From Stenomitos rutilans HA7619-LM2 (lineage in GTDB: Bacteria; Cyanobacteriota; Cyanobacteriia; Leptolyngbyales; Leptolyngbyaceae), in NCBI GenBank assembly GCA_019358945.1, contig JAHHIE010000067.1:1-37341 (forward strand): DNA of 37,341 bases. The letters are read 5' to 3'. The translations under genes were made by a program, and so were the position numbers. The notes beneath the pieces are model-generated. The model searched no databases. It worked only from the letters and a program-made list of their open reading frames with translations, and was not told the origin of the DNA. This document shows positions 3,228 through 31,445 of the stretch, piece after piece. Positions within the stretch are counted from its first letter, which is position 1. Every line of letters begins with the position of its first letter.

Positions 3228-5195
3228 ATGACCACCCTCCCCCTCTCCCCTTCCCCTACCTTCTCCGGCAATCAGCGATCTCGCCTCAAAAAACACACCC
3301 TTCTCTTTCGCTACCTGGCAGAAATCAACCTGATTTTAGGAGCCTGGTATTTGCAGTGGCGGATTGGGCATTCCATCAATTTCAGTGTCTGGTGGCTGGC
3401 TATTCCTCTCTTGCTGGCAGAAATTTACAGCTACCTGGGCGGCGTGATGTTTACGATCGGCCTCTGGCGACCGCTGGTACGACAGGTGAAATCGCTGGAT
3501 CAACTTTCCCCACCGATCGCCCAGGCGAAGTATCCCAGTGTGGACATTTTTGTCACTTGCTATAACGAACCGCCCGACATGGTGGAGCAAACGACACGTG
3601 CTGCGCTAGCGATCGACTATCCCACGACCAAACTGAGGGTATACGTGCTGGATGATGGCAATTCGCCAGAAATGCGAACCATGACGCAGACATTGGGACT
3701 GGAAGATTTGCAGTCACCGCTATTGCAGGTAGAAGTGACGCAGTTGAAAGGGGAGCGATCGCGCTTGCTCGACCAGCTTGAGCACATTCAGCAGCTAGCG
3801 CTGGATACCGCAGCGGCAGCACAATTCTTGCAGACGCAGCCAGAGGAGCAACATGCGGCTGTTGAAGCATTACACACGCTACAGAAAGTAACGATCGCGC
3901 TTGATCCGACGCATCCAAACCTGGGCGATCGTCTTTTAGCCGAACAGCGGCGACTGAAAGCTGCCATCCATCAAACCGAGTTAGATCTAGCGGATCTGGT
4001 GCGCTGCCGCTACATTGCCCGTCCAAAACCGAGTGGCAAGCCTCATCACGCGAAGGCAGGCAACATCAACTACGCCATCTTTTCGGGCGAAACCACTGGA
4101 GACTTTATTCTCACCCTGGATGCTGACCACATTCCCAAACCACAATTCCTCAAGCGTGTATTGCCCTACTTCTACACCTACAGTCCCTGGAAAGGTCAGT
4201 ATGAAAGCAACCGCATTGCGCTGGTGCAAACGCCTCAAGATTTCTACAATCTGCCTGCGGATGACCCATTTGGGCACCGAGCACACCTCTTCTACGGCCC
4301 CATTCAACAGGGCAAAGATGGTTTAAACTCCGCTTTCTACACGGGTACAAACGCTCTACTGCGGCGAGAAGCACTCGTTAGCGTTGGTTTAAGCTATTTT
4401 TCAGAAGCCTACGCCAAAGATATAACTCGCCTGGATGAATTTGACCTGATCGGCGGTATGTCCAGCAGCAGCATTACCGAGGATATGAATACGGCGATGC
4501 GACTACACGGAGCAGGCTGGCGATCGGTTTATCACAACGAACTGCTAGCAGAGGGGCTGGCTCCAGATGACCTGAGTTCGACGTTCAAGCAACGGTTGCG
4601 CTGGGCACAGGGCACGATCCAGGTGTTGCTGCAAGAGAATCCCTGGTTCAAACCGGGACTCTCGTTCTGGCAGCGGCTTCAGTATTTCCAGACGATGTAC
4701 AGCTACTTCTCCGGGTTTGCAACAGTCATTTTTATCGCCTGTCCTATCATTTACTTTTTCACAGGATTAATTCCTGTCAGCGCCTATGGTAATGATTTTG
4801 CGCTGCACTTTTTCCCAGCGTTCATCATCAACCGTCTGACGTTTACAGTGGCGACCTGGGGCATTCCAGCCGGGGAAGTGTGGCGATCGGAGCAGTACGC
4901 GATCGCCCTCTTCCCCCTCTTCATCCAGGCAGTCTGGAGTGTGTTCACCAAACGTCCTCTCAAATTTCAGGTCACGCCCAAACAAAGACAGTCTGGAATT
5001 TACCTGCGACTGGTGCGCCTTCAACTCATTGTCTTCGGGCTGACGCTCATGGGCATCGTGTGGAGTTTAGGACTCTTTGCGGTGGGTCAATTGCAAGACC
5101 CTTGGGTGCATCTGCTCAACGGCGGTTGGGCAATCTACAATCTGGTCTTGCTCTGGGCTGTGATTAGAGCCGCCGTCTGGCAACCAAAAGCATAA
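3228..5195 (+). CDS. Cellulose-synthase-like family 2 glycosyltransferase
   Basis: An inner-membrane processive glycosyltransferase that likely polymerises a beta-linked glucan or similar polysaccharide from a nucleotide sugar. Visible catalytic motifs are DDG (142-144), DAD (298-300), TED (417-419) and QRLRW (455-459), the D, DxD, TED, QxxRW set of processive GT2 enzymes. HHAKAGNINYA (about 273-283) matches the cellulose synthase family. Two hydrophobic segments precede the catalytic domain (about 28-80) and several follow it (about 490-648). The protein is 655 residues and ends right after the last membrane segment, so no C-terminal PilZ c-di-GMP domain is seen. About 95 mostly helical, Gln/Leu/Ala-rich residues (about 160-258) sit between DDG and the RYIARP segment, longer than usual. 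The ATG at 3228 has no purine-rich ribosome binding site, being preceded by CATCCCT repeats. The substrate is not provable from sequence. Confidence 0.87.
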   Translation: MTTLPLSPSPTFSGNQRSRLKKHTLLFRYLAEINLILGAWYLQWRIGHSINFSVWWLAIPLLLAEIYSYLGGVMFTIGLWRPLVRQVKSLDQLSPPIAQAKYPSVDIFVTCYNEPPDMVEQTTRAALAIDYPTTKLRVYVLDDGNSPEMRTMTQTLGLEDLQSPLLQVEVTQLKGERSRLLDQLEHIQQLALDTAAAAQFLQTQPEEQHAAVEALHTLQKVTIALDPTHPNLGDRLLAEQRRLKAAIHQTELDLADLVRCRYIARPKPSGKPHHAKAGNINYAIFSGETTGDFILTLDADHIPKPQFLKRVLPYFYTYSPWKGQYESNRIALVQTPQDFYNLPADDPFGHRAHLFYGPIQQGKDGLNSAFYTGTNALLRREALVSVGLSYFSEAYAKDITRLDEFDLIGGMSSSSITEDMNTAMRLHGAGWRSVYHNELLAEGLAPDDLSSTFKQRLRWAQGTIQVLLQENPWFKPGLSFWQRLQYFQTMYSYFSGFATVIFIACPIIYFFTGLIPVSAYGNDFALHFFPAFIINRLTFTVATWGIPAGEVWRSEQYAIALFPLFIQAVWSVFTKRPLKFQVTPKQRQSGIYLRLVRLQLIVFGLTLMGIVWSLGLFAVGQLQDPWVHLLNGGWAIYNLVLLWAVIRAAVWQPKA

Positions 5196-5277
5196 AACGC
5201 TGAGATGCTCATCGGTTGCTTTGGGGAACACTAACTTAGTTGCGATCGACCTCAAGAGAATTTACCCTACCAGCTTT

Positions 5278-5595
5278 ATGGTCAAAATTATTCAACCCAA
5301 CGGCATTTTAGACAGTGTAGGTGGAAACCGTTTTCGCCGTGAAATCACTGATTTGGTCGAGTCTGGCGTCAAAACAGTGCTCGTAGATTGTCAGAATGTA
5401 GAACTGATGGATAGCTCTGGCTTAGGGGCGCTAGTCATGGCGCTTAAAACGCTGCGTGAAGCAGGTGGCAGACTGTCTCTTTGCTCAGTGAATAACCAGC
5501 TAACGATGGTGCTTGAACTGACGGGTATGGACGATGTGTTTGAAGTGTTTGCCAACCAGGATGAGTTTAATCGTGCGGTATTAATAGAGGGATGA
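5278..5595 (+). CDS. STAS-domain anti-sigma factor antagonist (SpoIIAA/RsbV-like)
   Basis: A 105-residue single STAS domain. The signature MDSSGLGALV at 44-53 matches the phosphorylation loop of SpoIIAA and RsbV; by alignment Ser46 would be the switch residue. In the known mechanism the dephosphorylated protein binds an anti-sigma-type kinase and releases its partner, and a PP2C phosphatase resets it. An upstream TTG at 5221 would add 19 residues with no family resemblance, so the ATG at 5278 is preferred. It lies 82 bases after the glycosyltransferase and converges with a receiver-PP2C phosphatase gene, a plausible partner. No serine kinase/anti-sigma factor is in the window. Confidence 0.85.
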   Translation: MVKIIQPNGILDSVGGNRFRREITDLVESGVKTVLVDCQNVELMDSSGLGALVMALKTLREAGGRLSLCSVNNQLTMVLELTGMDDVFEVFANQDEFNRAVLIEG

Positions 5596-5748
5596 GGAAT
5601 GAGAGAAGCAGAGGGAGCAAGGGAAGCAGGGGAAGCGAGAAGTTCTGAGTTGTGAGCCGCAGGAGAGGTGTGAGATGAAATCTTGCCTTCTGCTGTCTGC
5701 CCTTTACCACCCCCGTTCCCCCTGCTTCTCCACTCCCGACTCCTCATG
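5596..5748. repeat. Purine-rich then pyrimidine-rich intergenic repeat
   Basis: Between two convergent genes, 5603-5640 is built from GGGAGCA/GGGAAGCA units and 5700-5745 is its pyrimidine-rich counterpart (CCCCCTGCTTCTCC and similar). The two halves could pair into a long stem and might end transcription from both sides. Similar purine blocks recur near 26500 and 27770. Confidence 0.55.
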
Positions 5749-5750
5749 CC

Positions 5751-6920
5751 TCAATCAAGCTGCACCTGTAGCAACGAGCAATCGTCCTCAAAGGTTGTGC
5801 GACCACTTACAGCCTGTACTTGCTCGAGAATAGCGTCAGGATTGGCAGTAGTGGTAGCGCTGTGCTTAGTGAGGAGTGCGATGAAGTCAGCTAGTGTCCA
5901 AAAGGTGTCGTTATGCTGTCTGATCTCGTAGATGCCATCGCTGAACAGGTAAAGCGTGCTGGGACGATCGATCACATAACTTTCACTAACGTATTTGGCA
6001 TCTGGCACCATACCAATGGGCTTACCGCGTGTGCGTAACTGTTTTACGTCAGAGGCGGCTGCCGCTTCAGAGATCGATACTGTAGGCACCAAAACAGCAG
6101 GTGGATGACCAGCACTGGCATAGGTAAGTTGTCGTTTGCGTTGGTTGTAGATGCCATACCAAATGGTGAAATAGCGATTGTTCTGTTTCTCCATCTGAAA
6201 AATTTCGTTTAGTGCCTTCAATACCAGATGCGGTTGGTAGAAACTGACGCCAGGTAGCGACTGCGATCGCAAGACGTTCTGCACAGCAACAGAGAGCAAG
6301 GCTGAACCGAGTCCGTGCCCGGAGACATCGAGTAAGTAGAACATTAAGTAATCGGGATCGAGCCAATAATAGTCAAAACAATCGCCACCCAACTGCCGAG
6401 AGGGTAAAAAGCGGGGGGTGATCGCTATGCTACCGCTGATAGGGGCTGGCAGAATCGACTTCACATAGTCAGCGGCTTCGGTTAACTCTGCTTCTAAAGC
6501 CTGCTTCTGCGTCTGTAAGTCTTCTGCTAGTGCTTGCAAATCCTGTGATGCCTGGTAGAGCCGTAGTCCTGCCCGGACGCGCGCTTTGAGTTCATTTGGT
6601 TCCAGTGGTTTCGAGAGAAAGTCATCGGCTCCTGTATCTAAACCTTTAACGCGATCGGCGATTTCAGACCGAGCAGTCAGCAAAATAAAGAACGTCTTGG
6701 CAAGGGCTGGATTGGTTTTGATCGCTCGGCACACAGACAACCCATCCATATTGGGCATTTGCCAATCACAAATGATGAGCGCTGGGTGATGGTTGTGTGC
6801 TTGTGTGATTCCATCTTCACCATTTAACGCTGAAAGGATGTCGTAGCCTTGCGCCTGCAACAGTCTTTTCAGCATCAGTTGAATAAATGGATCATCATCG
6901 ATAATCAGGATTTGAGGCAT
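5751..6920 (-). CDS. Response regulator with PP2C-type (RsbU/SpoIIE) phosphatase output
   Basis: A 389-residue cytosolic protein. The N-terminal receiver (about 1-125) has acidic D8-D10, phospho-acceptor D52 in ICDWQMP, T82 and K104. A short coiled linker (about 125-160) leads to a SpoIIE/PP2C domain (about 170-389) with the metal-binding aspartates of GGDCFDYY, LLDVSGHG, FSDGIYE and DDCSLL. The family dephosphorylates STAS-domain antagonists in a phosphorylation-dependent way. The closest candidate substrate is the STAS protein encoded convergently at 5278-5595. The gene starts 54 bases after the hybrid histidine kinase gene, which could phosphorylate D52 through its Hpt domain. Both pairings are inferred from position. 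Confidence 0.9.
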   Translation of the reverse strand: MPQILIIDDDPFIQLMLKRLLQAQGYDILSALNGEDGITQAHNHHPALIICDWQMPNMDGLSVCRAIKTNPALAKTFFILLTARSEIADRVKGLDTGADDFLSKPLEPNELKARVRAGLRLYQASQDLQALAEDLQTQKQALEAELTEAADYVKSILPAPISGSIAITPRFLPSRQLGGDCFDYYWLDPDYLMFYLLDVSGHGLGSALLSVAVQNVLRSQSLPGVSFYQPHLVLKALNEIFQMEKQNNRYFTIWYGIYNQRKRQLTYASAGHPPAVLVPTVSISEAAAASDVKQLRTRGKPIGMVPDAKYVSESYVIDRPSTLYLFSDGIYEIRQHNDTFWTLADFIALLTKHSATTTANPDAILEQVQAVSGRTTFEDDCSLLQVQLD

Positions 6921-6974
6921 GGTTGGTTTAGCATGGATGGTTTTACTTCCTTCTAACCAGACAGATGCAAACGC

Positions 6975-9900
6975 TTAAGCAACTTGCTGCAAAGCGGCTC
7001 GTGCTCGATCGTAGGCGGCTTCGAGTTGTTTAATAGCGGTTGCACTGCCTTCAGTGCTGCCCATTCGACTGGTCGTTTCTAGCTGAGCGCACAAATTGGC
7101 AACGACGATCGCACCTAGGCACGCACTGCTAGATTTAAGCGTGTGGGCCGCGTGATTAAGGGCAACAGCGTCGCTTTTGCAAGCCGCCTCATTCATCGCT
7201 TGCATGAGTTTCGGTGTCTCTGCAAGGTAACAATCAATCAGCTCAGTGATGCCTTCTCTAGCATCTTCACCGAGAGCGTTACGTAGCAATTCTAATGCTT
7301 GTGGATCGATCGCCGTTTCGCAGCTTTGTTCCAGGGTACTGATTGATGGCTGCTTGTAGTGAGAACCTTGGGTTAAAGCTTGTGCCAGTACATCGACACG
7401 AATGGGCTTGCTGATGTAATCATCCATACCTGCTCCAAGGCACTCTTCACGATCGCCGACCATTGCATTGGCTGTCATGGCAATAATATGTGGGCGAGAT
7501 GATGGCTCCCAGTGTTCACAGATATAGCGCGTAGCGCTTAATCCATCCATCTCAGGCATCTGTACATCCATCAAAACAACATCATACGATTGATTGCTTA
7601 AAGCCGCGATCGCGTCCAACCCATTACTTGCAACGTCAGCGCTGTAGCCTAATTGTTGCAGCAGCAGCAACGCTACCTTTTGATTGATCAGGTTATCTTC
7701 AGCCAGCAATATCCGTAGCGGCATATGTTCCGCTAATTTTACAGCACGATCGCTGGGAGGTTCGGCAGTAGGCAGTTGAAACGCTTTTCCAGCCAACAGG
7801 TCGATCAATAAATGATAAAACTGGGACTGTTTGACAGGCTTGTGCAACACAGCGGCATACGGCATCCCAAGGTCTTGAGCTACAGGCTTCAACCGATCAA
7901 ACGTGAGCAGGACAAGAGGCATTGTCTGGTGGTGCATTGTCTGGCGGTGCATTGTCTGCTGGATATCTGATAGCAGCGATGCCTGTGAAGCGTCAAGCGA
8001 TTGCTGATCCAGCAGCAAGATATCAACGGGTGTTGTTTGCAGCGCCTTCAATAACTCCAACCCTGACTGAGGCGCATATACGTCTAAACCAAACGCCTGA
8101 GCTTGAAACGTTAAGTGTTGACGACTGATGGCATTATGGTCAAAAAGCAGCAATCGTTTACCAGGTAAGAGAGTGCTTGTCTCAACGCTGGAGGCATCTT
8201 CGATCGCCGCTTGAGCCATGATTGAAAATGAAAAGGTTGAGCCTTGTTCTACGTCACTATCAACCCAAATTCTGCCACCCATGAGTTCGCACAGTCGTTG
8301 GCAAATGACTAAACCTAACCCCGTACCACCATAGTTACGGTTGATAGAAGAATCGACTTGACTAAACGGTTGGAAGAGACGATCGAGGCGATCGGAGGCA
8401 ATGCCCGTACCCGTATCTTTGACCGCAACGCGGATTGCGTAGAAGGGTAAAGAACTAAACTCGTCACTGGTATGGCTACCAGGCTGAGAGACCGCTTGTG
8501 GTGCTTCAGACATCTGCGATCGCTGTAGCTTTCGTGCCAGCACAGACACAGAAATCTCACCCGCACTCGTAAATTTGACCGCATTGCTTAAAAGATTCAC
8601 CAAGATCTGACGTAACCGAGTGATGTCACCGATCACCTGGCTAGGCGTATTTGGATCAATCACATAGGCAAGCTCTAGACCTTTCTCCAGGGCTTTTGGT
8701 GTCATCAGGTCTAATGAGGCTTCAATACAGGAGCGTAGATTGAAGGGTTGGGTTTCTAGCTCTAGCTTGCCAGATTCAATTTTGGAGAAGTCGAGGATAT
8801 CGTCAATGATGGTGAGCAACCCATCACCGCTGCTGCGAGCCGTTTCTAACAGGTCTTGCTGCTGAGGTGTGAGGTCGGTATTGAGCAAGAGCTGTGTGAT
8901 GCCAATGACAGCGTTCATGGGGGTGCGAATTTCATGACTCATCATGGCTAAAAATTCACTTTTTGCGCGATCGGCGCTTTCGGCTTGTCGCATAGCGTTT
9001 TCCAGCGCCACGTTTTTAACCGTCAGTTCTTCGCGCTGAGTAGTTTCTTGTTTGAGTAAAGCAGCCTGTGCGATGGCGATACCGACTTGAGTGGCAACCG
9101 CTTCGAGCAGATCAATTTCGTCTTTTGTCCAGTGGCGAATACGATCGCACTGGTGTAGTGCAATCACGCCATTGGGCTCGCCTTGATAGGAGGTACGCAC
9201 AATCAGCATAGATTTTAGCCCCATCGCAGCAGCCGTCGCTTGTGTTCTTGCCAGCAATGGTTCTGCAAAAATATCTGGGGTTGCAATCGCCTTATCAGCC
9301 GCCAACACCTTTTCGGCGTAGGGATTGCCCGTAAATGGGACTTCAATGTGACGAACGGAGAAACAGCCTACTTCCAAATACTCAGCAACCGTTAGCATCT
9401 GCACGGTGGGTGCTGCACTATAAGTGCGAATCAAACAGCGATTAGCCTGAAAAGTTAGCCCAAGCCGAATTGCAGCGGTTTGAAAGATTTGATTGGCATC
9501 CAGGCTTTGACGAATTTCCTCCGTAATTTGCTTGAGCAATAACGTGCGCTGCAATTGGTGTTGCAAGCTCATTTCCGCCTGCTTGCGTTTCACAAACTGC
9601 CCAATCTGCCGACCGATCGCCGTCATCATCTTGAGCAACGCCTCATCAGGTGGCTGAATGCGATGGCTAAAAAAGGTGAGTACACCCAGTACTTCGGCAC
9701 CGCTGAGAATGGGGAAGCCGATCGCGGCATGTAAGCCTGCCTGTCGCACCACAGCCGACTGCACAGCATCGTCCTGCGCCACATCGGGAATCCAGATTGC
9801 CGCACCACTGGCCCAAACCCGCCCCGGTAAGCCAGTACCCAAGGGCACAACAGGGTAGTAGGTTGGTTCAAAATAGATATGGAGTGAGGGTAGATGCCAG

Positions 9901-10868
9901 ATTGCCACCCGCTCCAGACTGTTTGTAGCGGCGTTGAGGCTCCACAGGTTGCCCAAATCCCACTTCAGGCTTTCACCGATCGCTTGCAAAATATTAGGCG
10001 TTGCGGCTGCCAACGTCTCTGCCTCGGTCAAGATGCGAGTAATGGCGTATTCAGCTTCAAGCCGCTGCTCAACACGCTTGCGCGCTGTCATATCACGACC
10101 AATGTAAACAAACCCTTCAGTGCCTTCTTGAGGCTGCACTAAAGAGCGCGAAAAGGCAACTGTGAGCTGTGCCCCTGCTTTGGTTTGACACAGAATTTCT
10201 ACCTCCTGGTGCCATGTGGTTTGGGCCGCAAAAAGCGGGAGATTAGCTGATGCTATGAGTGGATCATCCATGACAAGACGGGCGATCGAGGCACCGACCA
10301 GTTCCGCTTCGTTATACCCAAACAGCCGCTGCGCTGCTTGATTTAGCGTTTTGATGCTGCCGCAGGCATTGGTCACAATTAACGCCTCTGCCATTGAGGT
10401 GACAATTTGGTTGGTGTAGCTGATGGAAGCGTTTAACGCACCGACCAGAAGATCGGCTTCATTGGCTCGCTGTACCAGGGATTGTTCCAGCACCATGCGC
10501 TGGGTAACATCCTCCAGCAAGACAATAAGCTGATGTTCAAACCCTTCCTGCTCCTGATTTTCCAGCACAGAAAGGTCAATATAAAGCTGGGTTTGTGCCG
10601 TCGATCGATTGATGCCCTTCAACACAAAGATGGCTTGCTGCTGTTGCACTACAGCGAACAATTGCGCTTCAGCACCATATAACTCCGGAAAACTTTGCCG
10701 GATATCGCTACCCCTCATCATCGCTGCCGGATCATCTGCCAACCGTTTGCTGCCAGACGACGCTTCTAAAATAGTCAGGTCGTGGTTTAGCACCAGATAC
10801 TCAATGCAGCGTGGTGCCAAAAGTTTGCTCAGAAGGCAGGGCCTATGTGGTTTAGAGGGTAGAGCCAT
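6975..10868 (-). CDS. Hybrid histidine kinase: PAS-PAS-GAF-GAF-HisKA-HATPase-REC-REC-Hpt
   Basis: A 1297-residue soluble multi-step phosphorelay kinase with no obvious membrane segment. In order: PAS-like sensor (about 15-125), PAS (about 145-265), GAF (about 280-425), GAF (about 445-600), dimerisation domain with phospho-acceptor H645 in MMSHEIRTP, ATPase with [16 protein letters not shown] and GGTGLGL (about 740-885), a first receiver (about 903-1030), a second receiver (about 1050-1170; E1057/D1058, D1101, K1154), and a C-terminal Hpt domain with H1242 in [11 protein letters not shown]. The first receiver keeps D954 and K1010 but has FDH where the acidic pair should be, so it may be a pseudo-receiver. 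A 15-bp repeat lies inside it. Residues 16-430 resemble the N-terminus of the adenylate cyclase encoded 24 bases upstream, so the two probably share a duplicated sensor. Signal unknown. Confidence 0.92.
7919..7963. repeat. 15-bp in-frame tandem repeat inside the hybrid kinase
   Basis: Three units beginning GCATTGTCTG lie at 7919-7933, 7934-7948 and 7949-7963; the third diverges at its end. In the kinase frame they encode repeated [10 protein letters not shown] units (about residues 970-983) in the degenerate first receiver. A unit of 15 keeps the frame when copy number changes. Confidence 0.75.
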
Positions 10869-10892
10869 AGCTGAAGCAGTTACGTAAAATAA

Positions 10893-12884
10893 TTACAGTG
10901 CCAACCCACAAACAGTTTTGCCAACGAGAAAATAAGTCTCCATTGTGCCTTTGCCTTTAATGGGAATACTGCCCCGATACTCAAAGGCAAATTGGTTTTG
11001 TAAGGCGCTGTATGTTGCGGCGGTGACTTGAATGCGTCCCGCAACACCTTGAGACTCCATGCGACTGGCAATATTCACGGTATCGCCCCAAAGATCGTAA
11101 ATAAACTTCTTGATGCCAATGACACCCGCAATCACAGGGCCACTGTGAATGCCAATCCGCATCGTAAGAGCGCAGTCGTTGGTAGCGCTAGAGTGGGCGT
11201 TAAACTGAGCATTAAAGTGGGCAAGTTCCGTTTGCATATCCAACGCCATTGCCGCGATCGCCTGAGCATGATCGGCTCGCTGCTTGGGCACACCACCCAC
11301 CACCATGTAGGCATCACCGATCGTCTTGATTTTCTCCAGGCCGTATTGTTCGCTCAGGCGATCGAAGGTGGAAAAAATTTGGTTCAGTAGATTGACCAGC
11401 TCAATGGGCGACAGGCTGCTGGCGAGTTGGGTAAAGTTAACCAGATCGGCAAAGAGAACGGTAGCTTCTGCAAAGTTCTCAGCGATGGTTTCTTGAGACT
11501 GCTTCAAGCGCTTTGCGATCGGTTTGGGTAAAACGTTGAGCAGCAAACGTTCAGTTTGTTCCTGCTCTTTAGAAAGTGCAGCTTCTATGCGTTTGCGCTG
11601 GATAAACTGACCGAGTTGACTACCGATGACGGTCAGGGTTTGCAGCAGGTCTTGAGCGGGTTCTTTCAGCTCACGGCTAAAAAACGTCATAACTCCTAGC
11701 ACTTCACCACTGCTTTGGACGGGAAAACCACACGCTACCCGTAGGCCAGCCTTGGCAGCGAGGGGCGATCGTAGGATGTCGAGCGCATCAGCCGTCGTAA
11801 CCCATTGAGGCTGTCCGGTTATCCACACGCGTCCAGGCAACCCAAGACCCACTGCTAATGTCGTCTTTTGAGCGATTGCCATAAACTCTCGTAGCGGCAA
11901 CGACGACTTCGACCAGGCTTCGACGCACCGCTGTACTCTAAGCGGTGTCGTTGCATCTGTCTCCTGGTTTTCCTCCGCCAGCCAAAGCTCCACCAAATCC
12001 CATTCGAGCACTTGACACAGGGCTGGCAAAATTTTGGCTGTCGCCTGTGCGATCGTTGTCGCTTCAGACAGAATACGGGCGATCGTGTATTGTGCCATCA
12101 GCCGCTGCTGAGTGCGTTCGCGATCGGTAATATCACGACCGATGTAAATAAAATCTTGACCATCATCGCTGTTGGTCTGCATTGTAGAGCATGAAAACGC
12201 GATTAAGCGCTTGGCACCGCTGCTGGTGCGACAGACGATTTCAATCTCCTTACCGACTGCTTGCGATGGGTTGGGCTGAATGGCTTGGAGTAAAAAGTTT
12301 TTGTCTGCCACGATCGTGGCGATCGGCTGACCAATCAGCTCTGTCTGGCTATAGCCCAACAAGCTATGTGTGGCTTGATTTACCGTTTTGATGATGCCTG
12401 CCTGATTGGTGACAACCAAGGCATCGGCGATCGCGGTCACAATTTTGTCCACGTATTCTTTAGATGTTGTTAGTGCACTCACCAACAAACTCATTTCATT
12501 GGATGCCTGCACCAAGCGCTGTTCTAACGCCATGTTCTGAGTGACATCTTCTAAAAAAAGAATAAGTTCACTTTCAGAAAACGTGGCTTCTGCGATTTGA
12601 GTCACGCGTAAATCAAAGTACAGCAAGGTTCCATTCGGCTGAGAACGGGCAATCGCGTGTAGTTCAAAGCTTGTCCGTTCTCCCTGAAGTACTGCCATCA
12701 GCTCGCTTTCTGACCCCACTAATTCTGGAAAGGATAGAGAGCAATCGCATCCCTTCACCAGGGCAGCCGCACTATCCGCGAACTGCTGCCCACCTGAAGA
12801 CACAGCGACAATGTGTAAGTGCCGATCAAGCGTCACATATTCCATGCGACGCAGGGCGAGTAGTTGCTCAAAGAGAGCGTTCAT
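10893..12884 (-). CDS. PAS-GAF class III adenylate cyclase
   Basis: A 663-residue soluble cyclase converting ATP to cAMP. An N-terminal PAS-like region (about 7-120), a PAS domain (about 140-255) and a GAF domain (about 265-435) precede the catalytic domain (about 470-655). Catalytic features: metal aspartates D480 (LFADLVNFT) and D524 (KTIGDAYM), the lysine of EKIKTIGD, D597 in YDLWGDTVN, N604 and R608 in NIASRM. The Lys/Asp pair is the adenylate rather than guanylate cyclase signature. The start ATG overlaps the stop of the upstream GTPase gene (ATGA, 12881-12884), indicating translational coupling. The sensor half resembles that of the hybrid kinase downstream. Confidence 0.92.
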   Translation of the reverse strand: MNALFEQLLALRRMEYVTLDRHLHIVAVSSGGQQFADSAAALVKGCDCSLSFPELVGSESELMAVLQGERTSFELHAIARSQPNGTLLYFDLRVTQIAEATFSESELILFLEDVTQNMALEQRLVQASNEMSLLVSALTTSKEYVDKIVTAIADALVVTNQAGIIKTVNQATHSLLGYSQTELIGQPIATIVADKNFLLQAIQPNPSQAVGKEIEIVCRTSSGAKRLIAFSCSTMQTNSDDGQDFIYIGRDITDRERTQQRLMAQYTIARILSEATTIAQATAKILPALCQVLEWDLVELWLAEENQETDATTPLRVQRCVEAWSKSSLPLREFMAIAQKTTLAVGLGLPGRVWITGQPQWVTTADALDILRSPLAAKAGLRVACGFPVQSSGEVLGVMTFFSRELKEPAQDLLQTLTVIGSQLGQFIQRKRIEAALSKEQEQTERLLLNVLPKPIAKRLKQSQETIAENFAEATVLFADLVNFTQLASSLSPIELVNLLNQIFSTFDRLSEQYGLEKIKTIGDAYMVVGGVPKQRADHAQAIAAMALDMQTELAHFNAQFNAHSSATNDCALTMRIGIHSGPVIAGVIGIKKFIYDLWGDTVNIASRMESQGVAGRIQVTAATYSALQNQFAFEYRGSIPIKGKGTMETYFLVGKTVCGLAL

Positions 12885-13420
12885 TCTGACTCCATCATCT
12901 GCTGAGTAAGAGTTTGAAACACATCATCAACAGCTTTCCCAGTCTTTGCTGAAGTGGCACACACGGTCAGCACACGGGGCTGATTCTGTAACGGCAATAG
13001 CTGGAGCAGATCTATGAGTGTTTTTTCCTCAACCAGATCGGCTTTGTTCAATGCCACAGCTACAACGCCTTGAGGATTAATTGCTAAGAAGCTTTCCACA
13101 TGTTCAGAAAGCCGATCGAGCGTTTCTTGCCGGGTGACATCGCCCACGACGATCGCTGCTTTCGCACCTTGCAAATAACTGGGCGCGATCGCCTTGAACT
13201 TGGTGCTGCCCTCAATATCCCAGATGAGAAGCTGTAGGTCTTTGATTCCTGGCTCCTGGCCTTCTACCAGCTTGCGAGAAATTTTTACGCCCACGGTGGA
13301 TAGGTACTGGTCGCTAAACTGGCGATCGACAAAGCGACGAATTAAGCTCGTTTTACCAACACCAAAATCACCAATCAGACACATTTTTTTGGAAAGCGTC
13401 GATTTAGAACCTGTAGACAT
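12881..13420 (-). CDS. Ras/Rab-like small GTPase
   Basis: A 179-residue single-domain GTPase. P-loop GDFGVGKTS (17-25), switch I YLSTVGVKI with T42, switch II WDIEGSTKF (D68, G71), NKAD and TSAK complete the five G motifs. The position of Ras Gln61 is Ser72, and the Ras Gly12 position is Phe19, so intrinsic hydrolysis may be slow and dependent on a partner. Bacterial relatives such as MglA work with roadblock-domain proteins. The gene upstream encodes a roadblock-like/OmpA protein, a candidate regulator. The stop overlaps the adenylate cyclase start. An internal ATG at residue 13 lies too close to the P-loop to be preferred. No strong ribosome binding site is seen before 13420. Confidence 0.88.
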   Translation of the reverse strand: MSTGSKSTLSKKMCLIGDFGVGKTSLIRRFVDRQFSDQYLSTVGVKISRKLVEGQEPGIKDLQLLIWDIEGSTKFKAIAPSYLQGAKAAIVVGDVTRQETLDRLSEHVESFLAINPQGVVAVALNKADLVEEKTLIDLLQLLPLQNQPRVLTVCATSAKTGKAVDDVFQTLTQQMMESE

Positions 13421-13676
13421 GATGAGTTAACTCGAAACACACGCCACAAATAGGTAATTTGTAGTAGCTTTAGTCTTCCCCTTTTGTTCTATTTGACAAC
13501 GAGGGTGATTCGATGCTGGTTAACTGACAAATCGTTCAGCGATCGTCTGACCCGCCCTGCACTGAAAGTGCGGGCTAACAGAAGAAAGGCCACAACAGGT
13601 TTCGCACCGTTAGCCTGGAGAGAATTTAATCAAACCGACAACCTTGTAGTGGCTTAGCATGAGGATGACCGATGCG

Positions 13677-13697
13677 ATTTAAGCCACGATCCTAAGG
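13677..13697. repeat. 21-bp direct repeat, copy 1
   Basis: ATTTAAGCC at 13677 followed by ACGATCCTAAGG. It recurs at 13780-13800 with one mismatch. The two copies flank a palindrome in the 468-base gap between the OmpA-domain gene and the GTPase gene, which otherwise shows no gene. Confidence 0.7.
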
Positions 13698-13731
13698 AAC
13701 AAGAATTAATTAAAGTGTGACCTTGGGGTAC

Positions 13732-13751
13732 GGGCGCACGGCCGTGCGTCC
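13732..13751. repeat. GC-rich palindrome
   Basis: A near-perfect 20-base palindrome centred on CACGGCCGTG, with one G-T pair. It is followed by CCCTACAG. This is a common type of small dispersed palindrome in cyanobacterial intergenic DNA. Confidence 0.65.
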
Positions 13752-13779
13752 CCTACAGAACACCTCACTTGCCGAAGTT

Positions 13780-13800
13780 ATTTAAGCCGCGATCCTAAGG
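13780..13800. repeat. 21-bp direct repeat, copy 2
   Basis: Second copy of the repeat at 13677-13697, differing at one base (GCCGCG for GCCACG). Confidence 0.7.
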
Positions 13801-13843
13801 GTCATACCGATTTAAAGAATGACGGCTACAGATCAATCGGTGG

Positions 13844-13872
13844 GTAGGGGCAAGGCAATGCCTTGCCCCTAC
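13844..13872. repeat. Perfect 29-bp palindrome
   Basis: Arms GTAGGGGCAAGGCA and TGCCTTGCCCCTAC flank a single central A. It lies 17 bases past the 3' end of the OmpA-domain gene. It can form a 14-bp stem and may attenuate transcription toward the GTPase gene. No T-tract follows on the minus strand, so it is not a classic terminator. Confidence 0.75.
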
Positions 13873-13888
13873 AGGATGTGTCGCATTT

Positions 13889-16129
13889 TCAATTCAAATT
13901 GGTATCAGTTGCGGAGGCGATCGGCTCGAAGGCAACGGAGCGACGTTTCCATGCTGGTTGGTTTGGCGGTTCGCTGTGAGAAGTTGCTGTCTCCAATTGC
14001 AAGCGGCTAGCAGCCACTCCTCGACTCACCAAGGTCGCACGTACAGCGCTGGCTCTTTGCAAGGCCAATGATGGCTTTTCCTGACTCGTCAATGCATCGC
14101 TTTGACCAATAATTCGCAGCGTGTAGTTGGGATATTGTTGAAGAAACGCAATCACTCGACTAATTTTGTATCCTTTGTCGGCTGGTTGTAGCACGGCTGA
14201 AGCGGGATTGAAGTACAGTCGGGTAGGAATCTGAATGGGTGGTACATTGACAGTGTTTGTCACCGATCGCACACCTGGAATTTGAGCAAAAGCTTGTGTG
14301 ATGGTGCTGGCGGCGATCGTCTGACTCAAGCTCCCCTCAACCAAAACACGTCCATCTGCATAGCGAGTGGTCACGGCAGTGCCGTCTGTTTGGTTCAAAA
14401 GCGCTGTGACTCGCTTTACTTCCGCTGCTGCCAGGACGGGATCAGGAGGCATCTCGACTGCCAGAATTTTGTTGTCTAGCGTCCAGTCTGGTGCGGCACG
14501 TTGCACGACTTGCTCAGCTTGCCAACGCAACATTGGATTGGGCAATCGTCCTGTCAGTGTCAACGTTTTGCGACTAGCTGTGACATCTAACCGATAAACG
14601 GCTAAGGCTGGTGTGGAGGCCAGTGCCAACGCGGTGTTTGATTCAGCGTGTCGTGCCACGCTTTGATGATATTGATAAAAGCCCCAGGGGATACCAATGA
14701 GCGCTAACAGTCCCAACACACCAATAAGAATGAAGGGCGGTTTGGCAGTTTTTGCGGGGCGATCGCCTGCAAACTGATCCCGCAGGGCTTCTAACTGAGT
14801 TGAGACCGCAGGGGGAATGGTGTCTGGATCGCCATCAAACGCCTCAAGCGAGTTGCCGTTCTGTTTGACCAGGGTACTCAGCGTTTGTCGCACCTTGGGC
14901 ATGAACGATCGCGGCGGTTCTCCCTGCACCACCAAGGCTAAATAGCAGTAGCCTGCCACTTCTAAAATGATTTTGGCCCCGCCATAGTCGATCTGATCAA
15001 GCTCTGATGTCGTTCCCGCTTGGGCCATACAATCATTGGCAAAACTGCGGATGGCCGTTAGCATCCCCGCCAACATTTCCGATTCCAGGCTCTGGTCACC
15101 CACCGATTGAATTTCGGCAATCAGCAGACCAGAGGCTTTGTGAATCAAAAAAATCGCCTGCACGGTGAAGGGCATTGCCTGCTTGAGAATCAGCTCTGCC
15201 TCAGACACACCCTGGAGCTTGGCGCGTATTTTACGCTGGATGCCCTCAGGACTGAGCGTATTTTCAATTTGTTGATTAATTGACTGGATGGCTTCCGCCA
15301 TATATTTGGCGATCGTACTGCCAATGATGGGATAAAGCGCATCCACCATAGCATCTTGCTCTAGCCGAATTTGCTCCTTGATGGCTTTGCCAATCGTAGG
15401 CGCGATTGCGTTTGCAACTTCTTCTGGCGAATGGGTGGTCTGCTGCGAAATTGCCGCTGCAATCAAGGGCGAAATTGCGGCACTCATGGATACTCTATCT
15501 TGCTCGCCCCGACTTTGAATTGCCTGATCAATAATAGGCGCGATCGCCCGTACCACCTCTTCTCTGGACTCTGCGATTTTGCGTGTCAACAGTTCTGCCA
15601 CCCACGGTAGCAACAGGTTCATCAACGCCGCAGGTTCATAAATTTGATGCTCCAGGCTAGCAATTTTTTGCTCCAGAGCCGCCGTCAGATCACGAGATGC
15701 GGTTAATTCAGCCCCAACCAAAAGGCTCTGTAACTGCTCAAAGGCATCGATCGATGTCTCAGAAGGGTGCTTCTGATCGTCTGGTTCACCTGGCTGAAAC
15801 TTGCCGGGTGGCGGTGGCGGTGGTTTCACCACTGGATTGCCATTGTCATCTGGTATGAATAATGTAGCTGCCACAGTGGGTACTGTTGACGGTTGATCTG
15901 ACTCAGGTACGCAATCTAACGTTTTGGGCTGATTGTAGGCGCGATCGTCCAGCAATGACATAGGAGTTGCTTCCAATGGATCAAGAGGTTGGGGCGGATC
16001 AACATTTTTGGGCGGATCAACAAGCTTGAGATCAATCAGCAGCTTCAACAAAGGTTCCAATTCATCATTTTGAAGATTCTCGGCTTCTTGAAGAAGCCGA
16101 GAATCTAGTTCTTGCGGCTGGCTATTCAC
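13889..16129 (-). CDS. Roadblock-like / BON-like / OmpA transmembrane protein
   Basis: A 746-residue protein. The N-terminal 130 residues are Pro/Asp-rich (KPPPPPPG near 102). About 165-290 holds repeated amphipathic units of the form REEVVRAIAPIIDQAI, PEEVANAIAPTIGKAI and DAMVDALYPIIGSTI. About 305-430 resembles a roadblock/LC7-type fold (IFLIHKASGLLIAEI). One membrane segment lies at about 464-486. Two BON-like segments (about 508-560 and 570-630) and an OmpA-like peptidoglycan-binding domain (about 635-735, with LRIIGQSDALTSQ) follow. The single membrane segment suggests a cytoplasmic N-half and a periplasmic OmpA half. Next to a Ras-like GTPase gene, a role as membrane-anchored GTPase partner is plausible but inferred. 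It starts 22 bases after the coiled-coil gene. Confidence 0.8.
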   Translation of the reverse strand: MNSQPQELDSRLLQEAENLQNDELEPLLKLLIDLKLVDPPKNVDPPQPLDPLEATPMSLLDDRAYNQPKTLDCVPESDQPSTVPTVAATLFIPDDNGNPVVKPPPPPPGKFQPGEPDDQKHPSETSIDAFEQLQSLLVGAELTASRDLTAALEQKIASLEHQIYEPAALMNLLLPWVAELLTRKIAESREEVVRAIAPIIDQAIQSRGEQDRVSMSAAISPLIAAAISQQTTHSPEEVANAIAPTIGKAIKEQIRLEQDAMVDALYPIIGSTIAKYMAEAIQSINQQIENTLSPEGIQRKIRAKLQGVSEAELILKQAMPFTVQAIFLIHKASGLLIAEIQSVGDQSLESEMLAGMLTAIRSFANDCMAQAGTTSELDQIDYGGAKIILEVAGYCYLALVVQGEPPRSFMPKVRQTLSTLVKQNGNSLEAFDGDPDTIPPAVSTQLEALRDQFAGDRPAKTAKPPFILIGVLGLLALIGIPWGFYQYHQSVARHAESNTALALASTPALAVYRLDVTASRKTLTLTGRLPNPMLRWQAEQVVQRAAPDWTLDNKILAVEMPPDPVLAAAEVKRVTALLNQTDGTAVTTRYADGRVLVEGSLSQTIAASTITQAFAQIPGVRSVTNTVNVPPIQIPTRLYFNPASAVLQPADKGYKISRVIAFLQQYPNYTLRIIGQSDALTSQEKPSLALQRASAVRATLVSRGVAASRLQLETATSHSEPPNQPAWKRRSVAFEPIASATDTNLN

Positions 16130-16151
16130 GGCTCAAAGAGACCTTGCGCTA

Positions 16152-16775
16152 TCAGGCAATTCGTTCGGAAATTTTTCTGGTTTCTAACAGTGGAATGTGT
16201 GTATCAGAATCCGCTTTGCTAGCGATTTCTCTAAGCTTTGGCACAAATTCTGTCCCTTTCATGCGCATCGCCAGCTCAAACAGTGCCTCTGCCATATCGT
16301 CTTTTGAGACTTTGCCTTCTCTGATGAGGGAAAAGCGTCGATCGAGTTCTTCAAAGACCATATCTCTGAGTGCCAAAACATCATCTTGCAGATTGGTTCT
16401 AGTTTGCAAAAGCTCGCTTCGTAACTCCTGCTCTTGCTTGTCGATCGCCACATCTAGCGATTCAATACTGCTAGAAAATTTTCGCTGAATTCGATCGATT
16501 TGTTGTTGTAAATCAACGCTATCTTCTTGAGATTTTGTACTCAGTGTTTTCAGCTTTTTCTCTAGTGAATCAGTCGCTGTACGTAACTCTGTGGCTAAAA
16601 TGGTCTTGATTTGGTCAATGCGATCGCGCATTTCTTGCTGAAACATCGTTGAATCCGATTCCAGGCGATCGAGCCGATTGTCATAATCGCGCAATTGAGA
16701 GCCAAAAATAATGTCACGAATTTGATCAATATTGCCAAGCCGCTCACGCACTTCTTCCTTGGTGATGTCACTCAT
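16152..16775 (-). CDS. Coiled-coil protein of unknown function
   Basis: A 207-residue soluble, highly charged protein. Residues about 30-150 show long heptad-like helical sequence (RLDRLESDSTMFQQEMRDRI, then DLQQQIDRIQRKF). No signal peptide or membrane segment is seen. It is the first gene of the minus-strand signalling block and lies 22 bases before the roadblock/OmpA gene, so they are almost certainly co-transcribed. A scaffold role for the membrane protein or the GTPase is a guess from position. I recognise no catalytic motif. Confidence 0.7.
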   Translation of the reverse strand: MSDITKEEVRERLGNIDQIRDIIFGSQLRDYDNRLDRLESDSTMFQQEMRDRIDQIKTILATELRTATDSLEKKLKTLSTKSQEDSVDLQQQIDRIQRKFSSSIESLDVAIDKQEQELRSELLQTRTNLQDDVLALRDMVFEELDRRFSLIREGKVSKDDMAEALFELAMRMKGTEFVPKLREIASKADSDTHIPLLETRKISERIA

Positions 16776-28017: not shown

Positions 28018-28611
28018 GTTTACACACGCCCCCTTGCCCGCTTAATTGAGCAACTGCAACATCTTCCTGGCGTTGGCCCCAAAACAGCCCAACGACTGGC
28101 GCTTCATATCCTCAAGCGATCAGAGGATGAGGTTAAGGCGTTGGCAAATGCGCTAATGGAAGCCAAACAGCAAGTTGGTTACTGTTCAGTTTGCTTTCAT
28201 CTTTCCGCAGAGCCTGTCTGCGAAATTTGTCGTACCCCTAGTCGTGACAGTCAAATTATCTGCGTTGTAGCAGATTCTAGAGATGTCATTGCGCTAGAAA
28301 AAACCCGCGAGTATCGAGGCAAGTATCACGTTTTGGGCGGACTCATTTCGCCAATGGACGGCATTGGGCCAGAACAACTGCACATCCAGTCGCTGATCCG
28401 TCGGGTGAAACAGCAAAATATTGCCGAAGTGATTATGGCAATTAGTCCCAGCGTTGAAGGCGAAACGACTACACTTTACGTGGGGCATTTGCTCAAGCAT
28501 TTTACAAAAGTGACCCGCATTGCCTTTGGTCTACCGATGGGCGGCGACCTAGAATATGCTGACGAGGTAACGCTGGCAAGAGCCTTGGAAGGTCGTCGAG
28601 AGTTGGATTAG
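28018..28611 (+). CDS. recR: Recombination mediator protein RecR, with apparent GTT start
   Basis: A 197-residue RecR of normal length; with RecO/RecF it loads RecA at gapped DNA. Helix-hairpin-helix [16 protein letters not shown] (about 17-32), a four-Cys zinc finger [16 protein letters not shown], and a Toprim domain with [14 protein letters not shown] and [15 protein letters not shown] are all intact. Family members begin (M)[12 protein letters not shown]. Here that first codon is GTT, nine bases after GGAGGA, and no ATG, GTG or TTG exists between the upstream in-frame stop (27991) and the TTG at 28141, which would delete the DNA-binding HhH. An ATT at 28009 sits too close to the ribosome binding site. 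Either a rare start codon, a crippling mutation, or a base error. Confidence 0.9.
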
Positions 28612-30035: not shown

Positions 30036-31445
30036 TCACTCTTCTAGCAGCGCATCGCCTGTGGCATCATGATCAGCGTCGATCAACGTTGATTCCGGGT
30101 TTAACAACGTTGGTAGTAACTCTACCTTGGCTTCGCGTTTAAGTTGTGAAAAGATGCGATATTTATCTGGGTCAAAGATATTTGGTGAAAGCTGCGTTTC
30201 ATCAACCTGCATCTTGATCAAATTGTATTGAACGTTTTCGGCATGAATGGCAAAGGTAACGGTGAAAACCTCTAGAAAATTGACGACCCAAGCACATTCG
30301 TCTTCAGGATAGTTTTGGTAGTACTTAATCAGTTCAGCAATACGCGCTTCTAGATGAGTGCGCGAATGCTTACAAATTAGAATAATTTTGAGTAATACCA
30401 CAACAAGCGTGATTGGGTTGCCCTGAGATAGCAGCAGCACAAATAATTGCGATGGTTCTGCCTGATTTTCAGTCGTCAAATAGTCAATGACTCGGTTACA
30501 CGTCCGCAGCATGAGAGCGCTGGACAGAACTTCATCATCATGACTGTCATAAAGGGTGTCTAATTTTTCGTTTAGTTTTGAGCGTAAGGTTTCAACAAAT
30601 TCCTGGTTTTCAACGGAGAAGATCAGGTATTGTTGCACGCTTTGCTTGAACTGTTTATAGGATAAGCTTTGCGTCTGATTAACAAAAATATTTGCCAGGT
30701 TTGCGTAGCTAAAAGGACCTCGTTTTGCCACGATCGCCTTAATTAACCGCAGCACTTCCTCACCCAACGCCGTAGGGTTTTTGGGAATGCGTTTGCTAGG
30801 GGCATTGCTCTGCGATCGTGCAATATACATCGCCAAGTCAAACTTAAAGCGATCTTTTAGTTGCTTTGACAGCGCTCTTGCGGCTTCTCGTTGCTCGATC
30901 GGGTTCTTCAGATCAATATATTGAGGTACTAGCAAATAAGACGTGTACCGCGAAACCCAGGGGCCTCGTTCTTTCTCGTCGTAACGCGATGCAAAGAGCT
31001 TCAGCTCCTCATAATCCCCACTTTTGACAAACCCATCTAACCAGTGTCGTAGACGCTTTAAGGTAGGGGATGCGGTATTGCGGTTGATAGACGGATCGGC
31101 AAAGACGGTGACCAAGTCTTGAATGGGCTTATAGTTGCGAGTTGCATCCCAGTTGTTGACCAAAATGTAACAACAGCGTTTGAGCGTATTTCTAAACTCT
31201 TCTTCATTATTAGAAAAAACGACATCATAAATCGCTTGCAGCGCATCGCCGCTGATGGAATCAACGTGATAGACGAATAAGCGCTTAAACTCAAGTAGAA
31301 CCTCTTCAGGCGGCCATTTTTTAACAATTTCCAAAAGAAAACTGTAAACCGTGTCCTGAGCCTGCTGAATATTCCGATTCAGCCTATTCGATCTAATCGG
31401 CGTCTCATTTTGATGAGCATCGTCTAAAGCATCCCTGATCATCAT
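30036..31445 (-). CDS. Conserved hypothetical protein, 469 residues
   Basis: I recognise no domain. The protein is soluble, rich in charged and aromatic residues, and predicted mostly helical, with no signal peptide. A hydrophobic stretch near 355-370 (TLVVVLLKIILICK) is more like a buried helix than a membrane span. It contains FDPDKYRIFSQLKREAKVEL near the C-terminus. Start MMIRDAL allows residue 1 or 2. It stands alone between gaps of 278 and 920 bases. The long clean frame and non-random composition make it a real gene. Confidence 0.8.
   Translation of the reverse strand: MMIRDALDDAHQNETPIRSNRLNRNIQQAQDTVYSFLLEIVKKWPPEEVLLEFKRLFVYHVDSISGDALQAIYDVVFSNNEEEFRNTLKRCCYILVNNWDATRNYKPIQDLVTVFADPSINRNTASPTLKRLRHWLDGFVKSGDYEELKLFASRYDEKERGPWVSRYTSYLLVPQYIDLKNPIEQREAARALSKQLKDRFKFDLAMYIARSQSNAPSKRIPKNPTALGEEVLRLIKAIVAKRGPFSYANLANIFVNQTQSLSYKQFKQSVQQYLIFSVENQEFVETLRSKLNEKLDTLYDSHDDEVLSSALMLRTCNRVIDYLTTENQAEPSQLFVLLLSQGNPITLVVVLLKIILICKHSRTHLEARIAELIKYYQNYPEDECAWVVNFLEVFTVTFAIHAENVQYNLIKMQVDETQLSPNIFDPDKYRIFSQLKREAKVELLPTLLNPESTLIDADHDATGDALLEE

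Follow-up and report, generated by a model that had tools for sequence, protein, structure and literature searches.

A cyanobacterial Group 1 Rup-type cassette with a predicted longin-fold membrane protein, a Rab-like GTPase and PAS-type adaptors on its output enzymes

Introduction

The Group 1 Rup system was outlined from gene neighborhoods by Wuichet and Sogaard-Andersen in 2014 (PMC4316618). In the passages of that paper that describe it, the system comprises a coiled-coil gene, a gene for a domain followed by a transmembrane helix and an OmpA region, a single-domain GTPase without the glutamine of the G3 motif, and an output protein whose N-terminal region is conserved and includes a glutamine. 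The same passages leave the domain unnamed and give a diguanylate cyclase/phosphodiesterase or a kinase as typical outputs. Here we describe a locus of this kind in the cyanobacterium Stenomitos rutilans HA7619-LM2. The DNA analyzed, referred to below as the window, is a whole stretch of 37,341 nucleotides (GenBank assembly GCA_019358945.1, contig JAHHIE010000067.1, positions 1 to 37,341). The parts listed above are all found in it, the glutamine of the output region being near-invariant here, with two candidates. Unlike the published outline, the window has predicted longin and PAS folds, an adenylate cyclase, a gene row with a double output and an extension by phosphatase and STAS genes; the terms "longin" and "adenylate cyclase" are absent from the main text of PMC4316618. 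We read the locus as a cassette in which a signal would pass from a wall-anchored longin protein to a Rab-like GTPase and on to a PAS-type adaptor and its enzyme, and we assign this reading a probability of roughly 0.6.

Other described systems resemble parts of the locus. The eukaryotic longin-type guanine nucleotide exchange factors (GEFs) of Rab proteins, namely TRAPP, Mon1-Ccz1 and Fuzzy-Inturned, are alike in that a longin fold, here a predicted one, stands beside a Rab-like GTPase. The window differs from them in being bacterial, in encoding one single membrane protein whose wall anchor is an OmpA domain, and in its second-messenger and two-component outputs; the sequence similarity of its domain to theirs is not significant, and an exchange role is putative. 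MglA/MglB and the actinobacterial conservons also combine a small GTPase with a domain of the roadblock/longin kind and are linked to kinases, whereas the window has no Pfam roadblock match and carries a Rup GTPase, an OmpA anchor and a PAS adaptor.

Among the full-text matches listed in our literature searches, where subscription papers are mostly outside coverage, there is no report of a bacterial pairing of longin and Rab-like proteins, and none follows up on Group 1 Rup systems. The matches listed for a Ras-like GTPase with a cyclase or for "Rab family GTPase" are unrelated papers only. As far as these matches show, the locus belongs to a known but uncharacterized kind of system, in which the longin and PAS assignments, the adenylate cyclase outputs and the double output are new.

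Results

The cassette lies on the minus strand. Its first gene encodes a coiled-coil protein of 207 amino acids (16152..16775). It is followed after 22 bp by the gene for an inner-membrane protein of 746 amino acids (13889..16129), which consists of a helical region, the domain with the predicted longin fold (residues 282-458 as modeled; 14756..15286), one transmembrane helix at approximately residues 465-485 (read by eye), a BON domain (Pfam E 2.4e-9) and an OmpA domain of the peptidoglycan-binding type (residues 639-715; 13985..14215; Pfam E 2.2e-8, 34.7 bits against a cut-off of 27.2). Next come the small GTPase of 179 amino acids (12881..13420; Pfam Ras E 1.1e-27) and an adenylate cyclase of 663 amino acids (10893..12884), the stop of the former and the start of the latter overlapping as ATGA. 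The cyclase begins with a PAS-type adaptor (residues 1-140; 12465..12884) and continues with PAS, GAF and class III cyclase domains (Guanylate_cyc E 9.7e-66). The gene for a hybrid histidine kinase of 1297 amino acids (6975..10868) starts 24 bp further on. It also begins with a PAS-type adaptor (residues 1-148 as modeled; 10425..10868), assigned by sequence comparison and modeling, which is followed by PAS, two GAF, HisKA, HATPase, receiver and Hpt domains; the last four are all confirmed by Pfam. Over their first 140 residues, cyclase and kinase are 48% identical. Open reading frames (ORFs) were called by a simple script as the longest open frames, with contig-end frames allowed, and small genes can be missed. 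The ORF call and Pfam confirm that all genes listed in the initial annotation, an earlier note on this DNA, are open and in the order and on the strands given there.

We searched 386 genomes of the phylum for the parts of the cassette. The region from longin to BON gives matches in 46 of them (E <= 0.001); the three genomes of the same family within the 386 gave no match to this region. Profiles of the adaptor (E <= 1e-8), the longin domain and the Rup-type GTPase (E <= 4.4e-40) each match 45 genomes, the GTPase count excluding 14 weaker matches in frames of 798 to 1420 amino acids. The adaptor occurs together with the longin domain in 41 genomes and with the GTPase in 41, and longin and GTPase occur together in 44; kin genomes are treated as independent in this comparison, and its p values overstate the significance.

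The gene order was compared in two sets of loci, which overlap (8 GTPases are identical over their last 150 residues). The first set consists of 80 named loci centered on the GTPase, the best of 549 confirmed; close relatives of the window are overrepresented among them. In this set, 61 of the 80 GTPase ORFs have a longin gene as their immediate predecessor and 70 have an adaptor-PAS gene as the next gene, with a contig end on each side for 2. The second set is centered on the longin gene and has 49 loci with 40 Rup-type GTPases. Here longin directly precedes 37 of the 40 and an adaptor-PAS gene directly follows 22, a contig end following 2 more; the coiled-coil gene gives 39 BLAST matches across the 49 loci, two of them in one locus (L046). 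As the core recurs in many genomes, the cassette is not a chance arrangement, which bears out the earlier view of a conserved unit made up of the GTPase, the outputs and an OmpA protein anchored in the envelope. That note had also set conservation of the order of six genes as a check. The strict order, with cyclase, hybrid kinase and phosphatase in a row as in the window, was seen in none of the 49 or 80 other loci, whereas the core recurs in cyanobacteria and on a rhizobial plasmid.

Seven loci (L047-L053) carry a divergent form of the cassette. A stand-alone PAS-like protein of 129-135 amino acids follows the GTPase in 5 of the 7; in L052 the PAS-like domain forms one protein with a cyclase domain, and L048 has no such ORF called. 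All seven loci continue with a kinase gene. Outside the Cyanobacteria we sampled plasmid records, among which tblastn returned five (Mesorhizobium, Rhizobium sp. 007, another Rhizobium, Nostoc and Legionella). The Mesorhizobium plasmid pWSM1497 has, in order, a hypothetical (coiled-coil-like) protein, an OmpA family protein, a "Rab family GTPase" and an adenylate/guanylate cyclase, and the same four genes are present in a Rhizobium record. The longin profile matches the OmpA protein of pWSM1497 with an E-value of 4e-44 and the GTPase profile matches its GTPase with 8e-57, these values being computed against about a dozen proteins. The cyclase of this plasmid (356 amino acids) has just a short N-terminal domain before the catalytic part; the match of this domain to the adaptor profile is weak and split into two segments (E 7e-6, on the same small set). 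When two rhizobial cyclase N-termini and six divergent cyanobacterial forms are aligned and compared with the adaptor alignment, hhalign gives 82.7% (E 9.5e-6, 118 columns), against below 1% for four other alignments.

The GTPase is a single-domain member of the Ras superfamily, below 240 amino acids in length. Its profile was compared with the PDB, and the best 60 of 746 chains are Rab-type (best E 2.4e-35). The G3 motif, WDIEGS, lacks the catalytic glutamine. At this position 123 relatives have H (53), S (39), Q (15), E (7), N (5), R (2), K (1) or C (1). With glutamine in just 15 of the 123, help in trans by a GTPase-activating protein (GAP) is plausible. The profile comparison and the literature frame point to a Rup/Rab-like GTPase and not to the MglA type named in the initial annotation (PMC4316618, in the parts that define these groups).

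Residues 282-458 of the membrane protein were modeled with AlphaFold2 from an alignment of 61 rows, with a mean predicted local distance difference test (pLDDT) score of 79.7 and a predicted template-modeling score of 0.71. The order of elements in the model, b1-b2-a1-b3-b4-b5-a2-a3, is that of the longin fold, with strands at 41-49, 55-60, 99-101, 104-111 and 114-121 and helices at 69-88, 128-148 and 159-171 of the modeled domain. A Foldseek search of the PDB with the model gives Mon1-Ccz1 as the top match (E 9.0e-5). Below it are clathrin-adaptor chains, Sec22b (template-modeling (TM) scores 0.58/0.77 for the better chain), Ykt6 and TRAPP chains, with MglC at rank 37. In VIA-align, which covers the families in its 50 rows, Sec22b aligns over 126 residues with Z 14.8 and a root-mean-square deviation (rmsd) of 2.4 Å. 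Vamp7 (Z 13.5), Ykt6 (12.8), synbindin (12.3; which we take to be a TRAPP subunit), Fuzzy-Inturned with Rab23 (11.5) and the longin domain of an Asgard roadblock-longin protein (10.4) follow; the rows listed are longin-type chains, and the C-terminal helix is included in the matches. The position of the extra helix distinguishes the two related folds, as it is C-terminal in longin and N-terminal in roadblock domains (PMC10933270, in the portion that compares them). The same pipeline yields PAS, not longin, for the adaptor, which speaks against a generic longin call. We conclude that a longin fold is predicted for the cytoplasmic portion of this OmpA protein.

Helix a1 of the domain holds 4 of the 13 residues (M67, L68, A70 and F74) that are invariant in an alignment including divergent members; they fall in its conserved stretch MLTAIRSF. 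In longin RabGEFs, helix a1 sits at the dimer and GTPase face. The invariant residues would fit a platform for a GTPase.

The initial annotation had called this region roadblock-like. The prediction of a fold that serves as a platform for small GTPases upholds part of that claim, longin being a sister fold of roadblock. A roadblock domain in the Pfam sense was rejected: no match to PF03259 was found in the 746-residue protein, in 29 relatives of the domain or in the whole genome (0 matches), and hhalign of the domain against roadblock proteins from 16 of 17 cyanobacterial loci (L194 was left out, as the wrong ORF had been taken) gives a probability of 0.2-0.3%. A longer longin/OmpA protein of 1202-1213 amino acids, with a long N-terminal extension, occurs in one genus (g15; L036-L039 and L074). 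In the one such protein on which Pfam was run, OmpA and BON types alone were found.

The adaptor, modeled from an 80-row alignment at a pLDDT of 86.4, has PAS topology with a long exit helix. The PAS domain of Rv1364c (Foldseek E 4.9e-6) and that of FixL (Z 10.1) match the model, and Pfam PAS_4 is found in just 4 of 31 members. Two glutamines are near-invariant, Q133 in 77 of 80 rows and Q129 in 76 of 80. The model suggests that the adaptor is a specialized form of the PAS fold. PAS domains in general are much commoner than matches to the adaptor profile.

The enzymes behind the adaptor vary. The 99 adaptor proteins in the named loci comprise 26 cyclases, 27 hybrid kinases, 30 kinases and 5 GGDEF proteins, with 11 unclassified or partial; the corresponding numbers for the 40 in the longin-centered loci are 15, 9, 11, 4 and 1. 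We also sampled 20 loci, a subset of all such matches, in which the adaptor is away from longin or the genome lacks longin. These have 11 cyclases, 4 GGDEF proteins, 3 kinases and 2 hybrid kinases, and in three of them (L170, L180 and L182) a Rup-type GTPase gene directly precedes the adaptor gene. The shared N-terminal domain, through its 48% identity and its profile co-occurrence, supports the earlier linking of the cyclase and the hybrid kinase to the GTPase. One adaptor protein of 699 amino acids (L171:5663-7762, plus strand) combines a serine/threonine kinase, GGDEF and the adaptor; its genome (G368) gave no longin or Rup-type GTPase match in the profile searches.

Downstream of the kinase, at a spacing of 54 bp, the minus strand carries the gene for a phosphatase of 389 amino acids with a receiver and a PP2C domain of the SpoIIE type (5751..6920; SpoIIE E 6.2e-39). 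Convergent to it on the plus strand is the gene for a STAS-domain protein (5278..5595; STAS E 1.3e-18), with an ATG start at 5278 and a frame open from a TTG at 5221. The STAS translation contains DSSGLGAL, in which the serine of DSSG is presumably the phosphorylated residue. Also on the plus strand are a cellulose-synthase-like glycosyltransferase gene (3228..5195) and a gene for a DUF3131 protein (204..3089), which adjoins the glycosyltransferase gene here and in Nostoc-type blocks. With an Hpt domain in the hybrid kinase and a receiver in the phosphatase, a phosphorelay between them is plausible.

An arrangement of a single adaptor hybrid kinase, receiver-PP2C, convergent STAS, glycosyltransferase and DUF3131 genes, without the cyclase, is present in 8 of the 80 named loci (L107, L116, L120, L123, L128, L131, L134 and L143, from Desmonostoc, Nostoc or Dendronalium), STAS being labeled in 7 of the 8. 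The same STAS-type arrangement is found in 3 of the 49 longin-centered loci (L057, L058 and L060). In L058, from Nostoc, the receiver-PP2C gene is split into two ORFs around an opposite-strand ORF of 486 amino acids. A partner switch needs a serine kinase, and no RsbW-like serine kinase was found among the ORFs of the window scanned between 204 and 18318. In the Nostoc-type blocks an ORF of 138-140 amino acids is HATPase_c_2 (RsbW-like) in both cases tested, L120 and L165. A homologue of the RsbW-like kinase (49%) is encoded in the genome of the window on contig C47, where a second receiver-PP2C gene and a hybrid kinase gene adjoin it. Of the STAS switch that the earlier note proposed as the end point, the window has the PP2C and the DSSG-bearing STAS protein; in the loci compared, this tail accompanies the cassette in some of Nostoc type only.

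The closest characterized analogue of the STAS branch may be the Hmp partner switch of Nostoc punctiforme (HmpU/V/W), which has a phosphatase, a STAS output and a serine kinase and is connected with hormogonium motility and polysaccharide (PMC8256260, PMC6495340, in the sections describing the switch). The likeness is one of description only. The window differs in lacking the kinase gene and in having a receiver on the phosphatase, which a phosphorelay could drive.

Several further arrangements were seen around these genes. In the genome of the window, a second partner-switch-like cluster (L207:1953-8456) has a hybrid kinase of 1487 amino acids, an RsbW-like ORF of 200 amino acids on the opposite strand and a receiver-PP2C gene. 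L120 has a PIG-L-type deacetylase gene, not present in the window, between STAS and glycosyltransferase (15576-16319, minus strand). L165 has an adaptor hybrid kinase, an RsbW-like kinase, a receiver-PP2C, a PIG-L-like protein and a glycosyltransferase, with coiled-coil, longin and GTPase genes not adjoining; its genome (G338) carries a divergent cassette elsewhere.

The GTPase gene is preceded by a gap of 468 bp (13421..13888), in which no ORF of at least 100 amino acids was found. A 23-bp near-perfect palindrome (GGGGCAAGGC...GCCTTGCCCC) lies in this gap at 13847-13869 and is the sole occurrence in the window at <=3 mismatches. Promoter and terminator scans of the window gave counts below those of shuffled sequence (5 against a mean of 11.1 and 9 against 12.8) and were not used. 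Rfam at the gathering threshold and tRNA scans found nothing in the window. Elsewhere, a RecR-like ORF at 28141-28611 (plus strand), called from TTG, has 156 amino acids, which seems short to us for RecR; its real start is perhaps earlier. An ORF of 469 amino acids at 30036-31445 (minus strand) has no Pfam match at E <= 1e-5.

Discussion

The conservation of the cassette, the predicted longin and PAS folds and the pattern of co-occurrence and fusion of the adaptor are what computation provides. The mechanism is read from gene adjacency, co-occurrence in genomes, one N-terminal domain common to different enzymes and the ATGA overlap. In the proposed scheme, the coiled-coil protein and the wall-tied inner-membrane protein would form an envelope-sensing unit. 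The cytoplasmic longin domain would act as the regulatory platform of the Rab-like GTPase, of the GEF, GAP or scaffold type. The nucleotide state of the GTPase would be relayed to the N-terminal PAS-type adaptors of the cyclase and the hybrid kinase, and control through these adaptors would set cyclic AMP (cAMP) synthesis and the phosphorelay. From the Hpt domain of the kinase, a phosphoryl group would probably pass to the receiver of the PP2C phosphatase, and the phosphatase would in turn reset the STAS protein beside the cellulose-synthase-like gene. The initial annotation, which had proposed a chain from an OmpA sensor through the GTPase to the cyclase, the phosphorelay and the STAS switch, is thus partly supported: it is right in outline, with the corrections given above.

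A number of observations weigh against this reading. The adaptor occurs without longin in 4 of 45 genomes (G105, G197, G300 and G368) and longin without the adaptor in 4 of 45 (G024, G308, G340 and G360), and certain cyclases with the adaptor are encoded a long way from the cassette. The five genomes with the longin/OmpA protein of 1202-1213 amino acids have no GTPase gene adjoining it. In 16 of the 40 longin-centered cases a gene other than an adaptor-PAS gene follows the GTPase. Seven of the 16 are the divergent form (L047-L053). An RRXRR/HNH-nuclease ORF lies between GTPase and adaptor kinase in L066 (4821-6089, plus strand), the adaptor kinase of L068 is on the opposite strand, and in L043 and L044 an unlabeled opposite-strand gene comes after the GTPase. 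A serine/threonine kinase without an adaptor match follows in L076. In L079, L081, L082 and L084 the next gene has the size of a receiver-histidine kinase and no adaptor match; BLAST had labeled its product PP2C-type, a label rejected because Pfam on 2 of the 4 shows a receiver-histidine kinase. Either the adaptor is not the sole possible partner of the GTPase, or some adaptors escape the profile.

The fold assignment has its own difficulties. The modeled domain has a helix at 29-37, before strand 1 (mean pLDDT approximately 70), as in roadblock domains, and the distinction between longin and roadblock is not absolute. The top Foldseek match, Mon1-Ccz1, has TM scores of only 0.48/0.50 and an rmsd of 5.5. 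Support from sequence was sought in three rounds of profile searches and was weak in each. The profile-only PDB matches are weak (BET5, E 0.29), and a second search gave nothing relevant; a search with the divergent form gave a Roadblock/LC7 protein at E 0.12. Pfam Fuz_longin_1 is found in 4 of 29, 1 of 61 and 2 of 9 members, with a best E of 0.0011, and never in the domain of the window itself. In the scheme as a whole, all physical contacts, the direction of the signal, the steps from Hpt through the receiver to STAS and the sign of the longin effect, as GEF or as GAP, are inferred.

The GTPase may itself be the output. The PAS enzymes or the OmpA sensor would then set the GTPase, which would control polarity or the envelope in a conservon-like manner. 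The passages of PMC4316618 on this point suggest that the GTPase is the output in MglA systems of Group 2 and compare the Rup systems of Group 1 with the conservon. The idea in the same paper of a glutamine supplied in trans is matched by the near-invariant Q133 and Q129 of the adaptor and by the rarity of the G3 glutamine. However, an adaptor that is N-terminal on interchangeable catalytic outputs suits a shared input domain, and in the model its conserved glutamine falls in the PAS exit helix. Coupling residues are often found in this helix. We consider it unlikely that the GTPase is the output, though this is the strongest of the alternatives.

A somewhat more doubtful explanation is that the adaptor is an ordinary ligand-sensing PAS domain, that its adjacency to the GTPase is mere operon inheritance, and that longin and GTPase act elsewhere. 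PAS domains often sense ligands. This explanation agrees with the adaptor cyclases that have no cassette adjoining, the four genomes with adaptor and without longin, and the kinases without an adaptor match that follow some GTPases. It does not sit well with a domain common to three distinct output classes, with the co-occurrence in 41 of 45 genomes, or with the loci L170, L180 and L182, where the adjacency of GTPase and adaptor is kept with no longin gene adjoining. In rhizobia, too, the gene after the GTPase encodes a related domain.

A polarity module of the MglA/MglB type, built on a roadblock domain, is highly improbable. The longin and roadblock folds are related and bind small GTPases in a similar arrangement (PMC10933270, PMC3521125, in the parts concerned), and the MglC rank, the Roadblock/LC7 match of the divergent form and the helix before strand 1 would agree with it, but the Pfam and hhalign results, the longin-type VIA-align rows with their C-terminal helix and the Rab-like GTPase profile speak against it, and Rup GTPases are described in the relevant passages of PMC4316618 as uncoupled from MglB.

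The preferred reading, from wall-anchored longin protein through Rab-like GTPase to adaptor PAS and enzyme, has a stronger version. It would be a true bacterial longin-Rab module, with the longin domain as exchange factor or activating platform, equivalent to the longin RabGEFs of eukaryotes, and with a PAS effector domain that plugs the GTPase into adenylate and diguanylate cyclases and histidine kinases. We hold this version tentatively, at somewhat short of even odds.

Conclusion

Our results suggest that bacteria too may couple a longin fold to a Rab-like switch. The roadblock/longin families are thought to be archaeal in origin, and in the Asgard archaeon MK-D1 the small-GTPase genes are generally not in operons with roadblock/longin genes (PMC10933270, in the sections that treat these points). 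In the window the longin and GTPase genes are adjacent, and the pairing is therefore directly testable. If it is true, the longin-Rab pairing would not be an archaeal and eukaryotic speciality. A predicted longin fold next to such a GTPase in a bacterium is relevant to the origin of the longin-Rab partnership of eukaryotic membrane traffic. For the bacteria that carry it, the cassette would offer a possible route from the cell wall through a GTPase to cAMP, cyclic di-GMP and phosphorelays.

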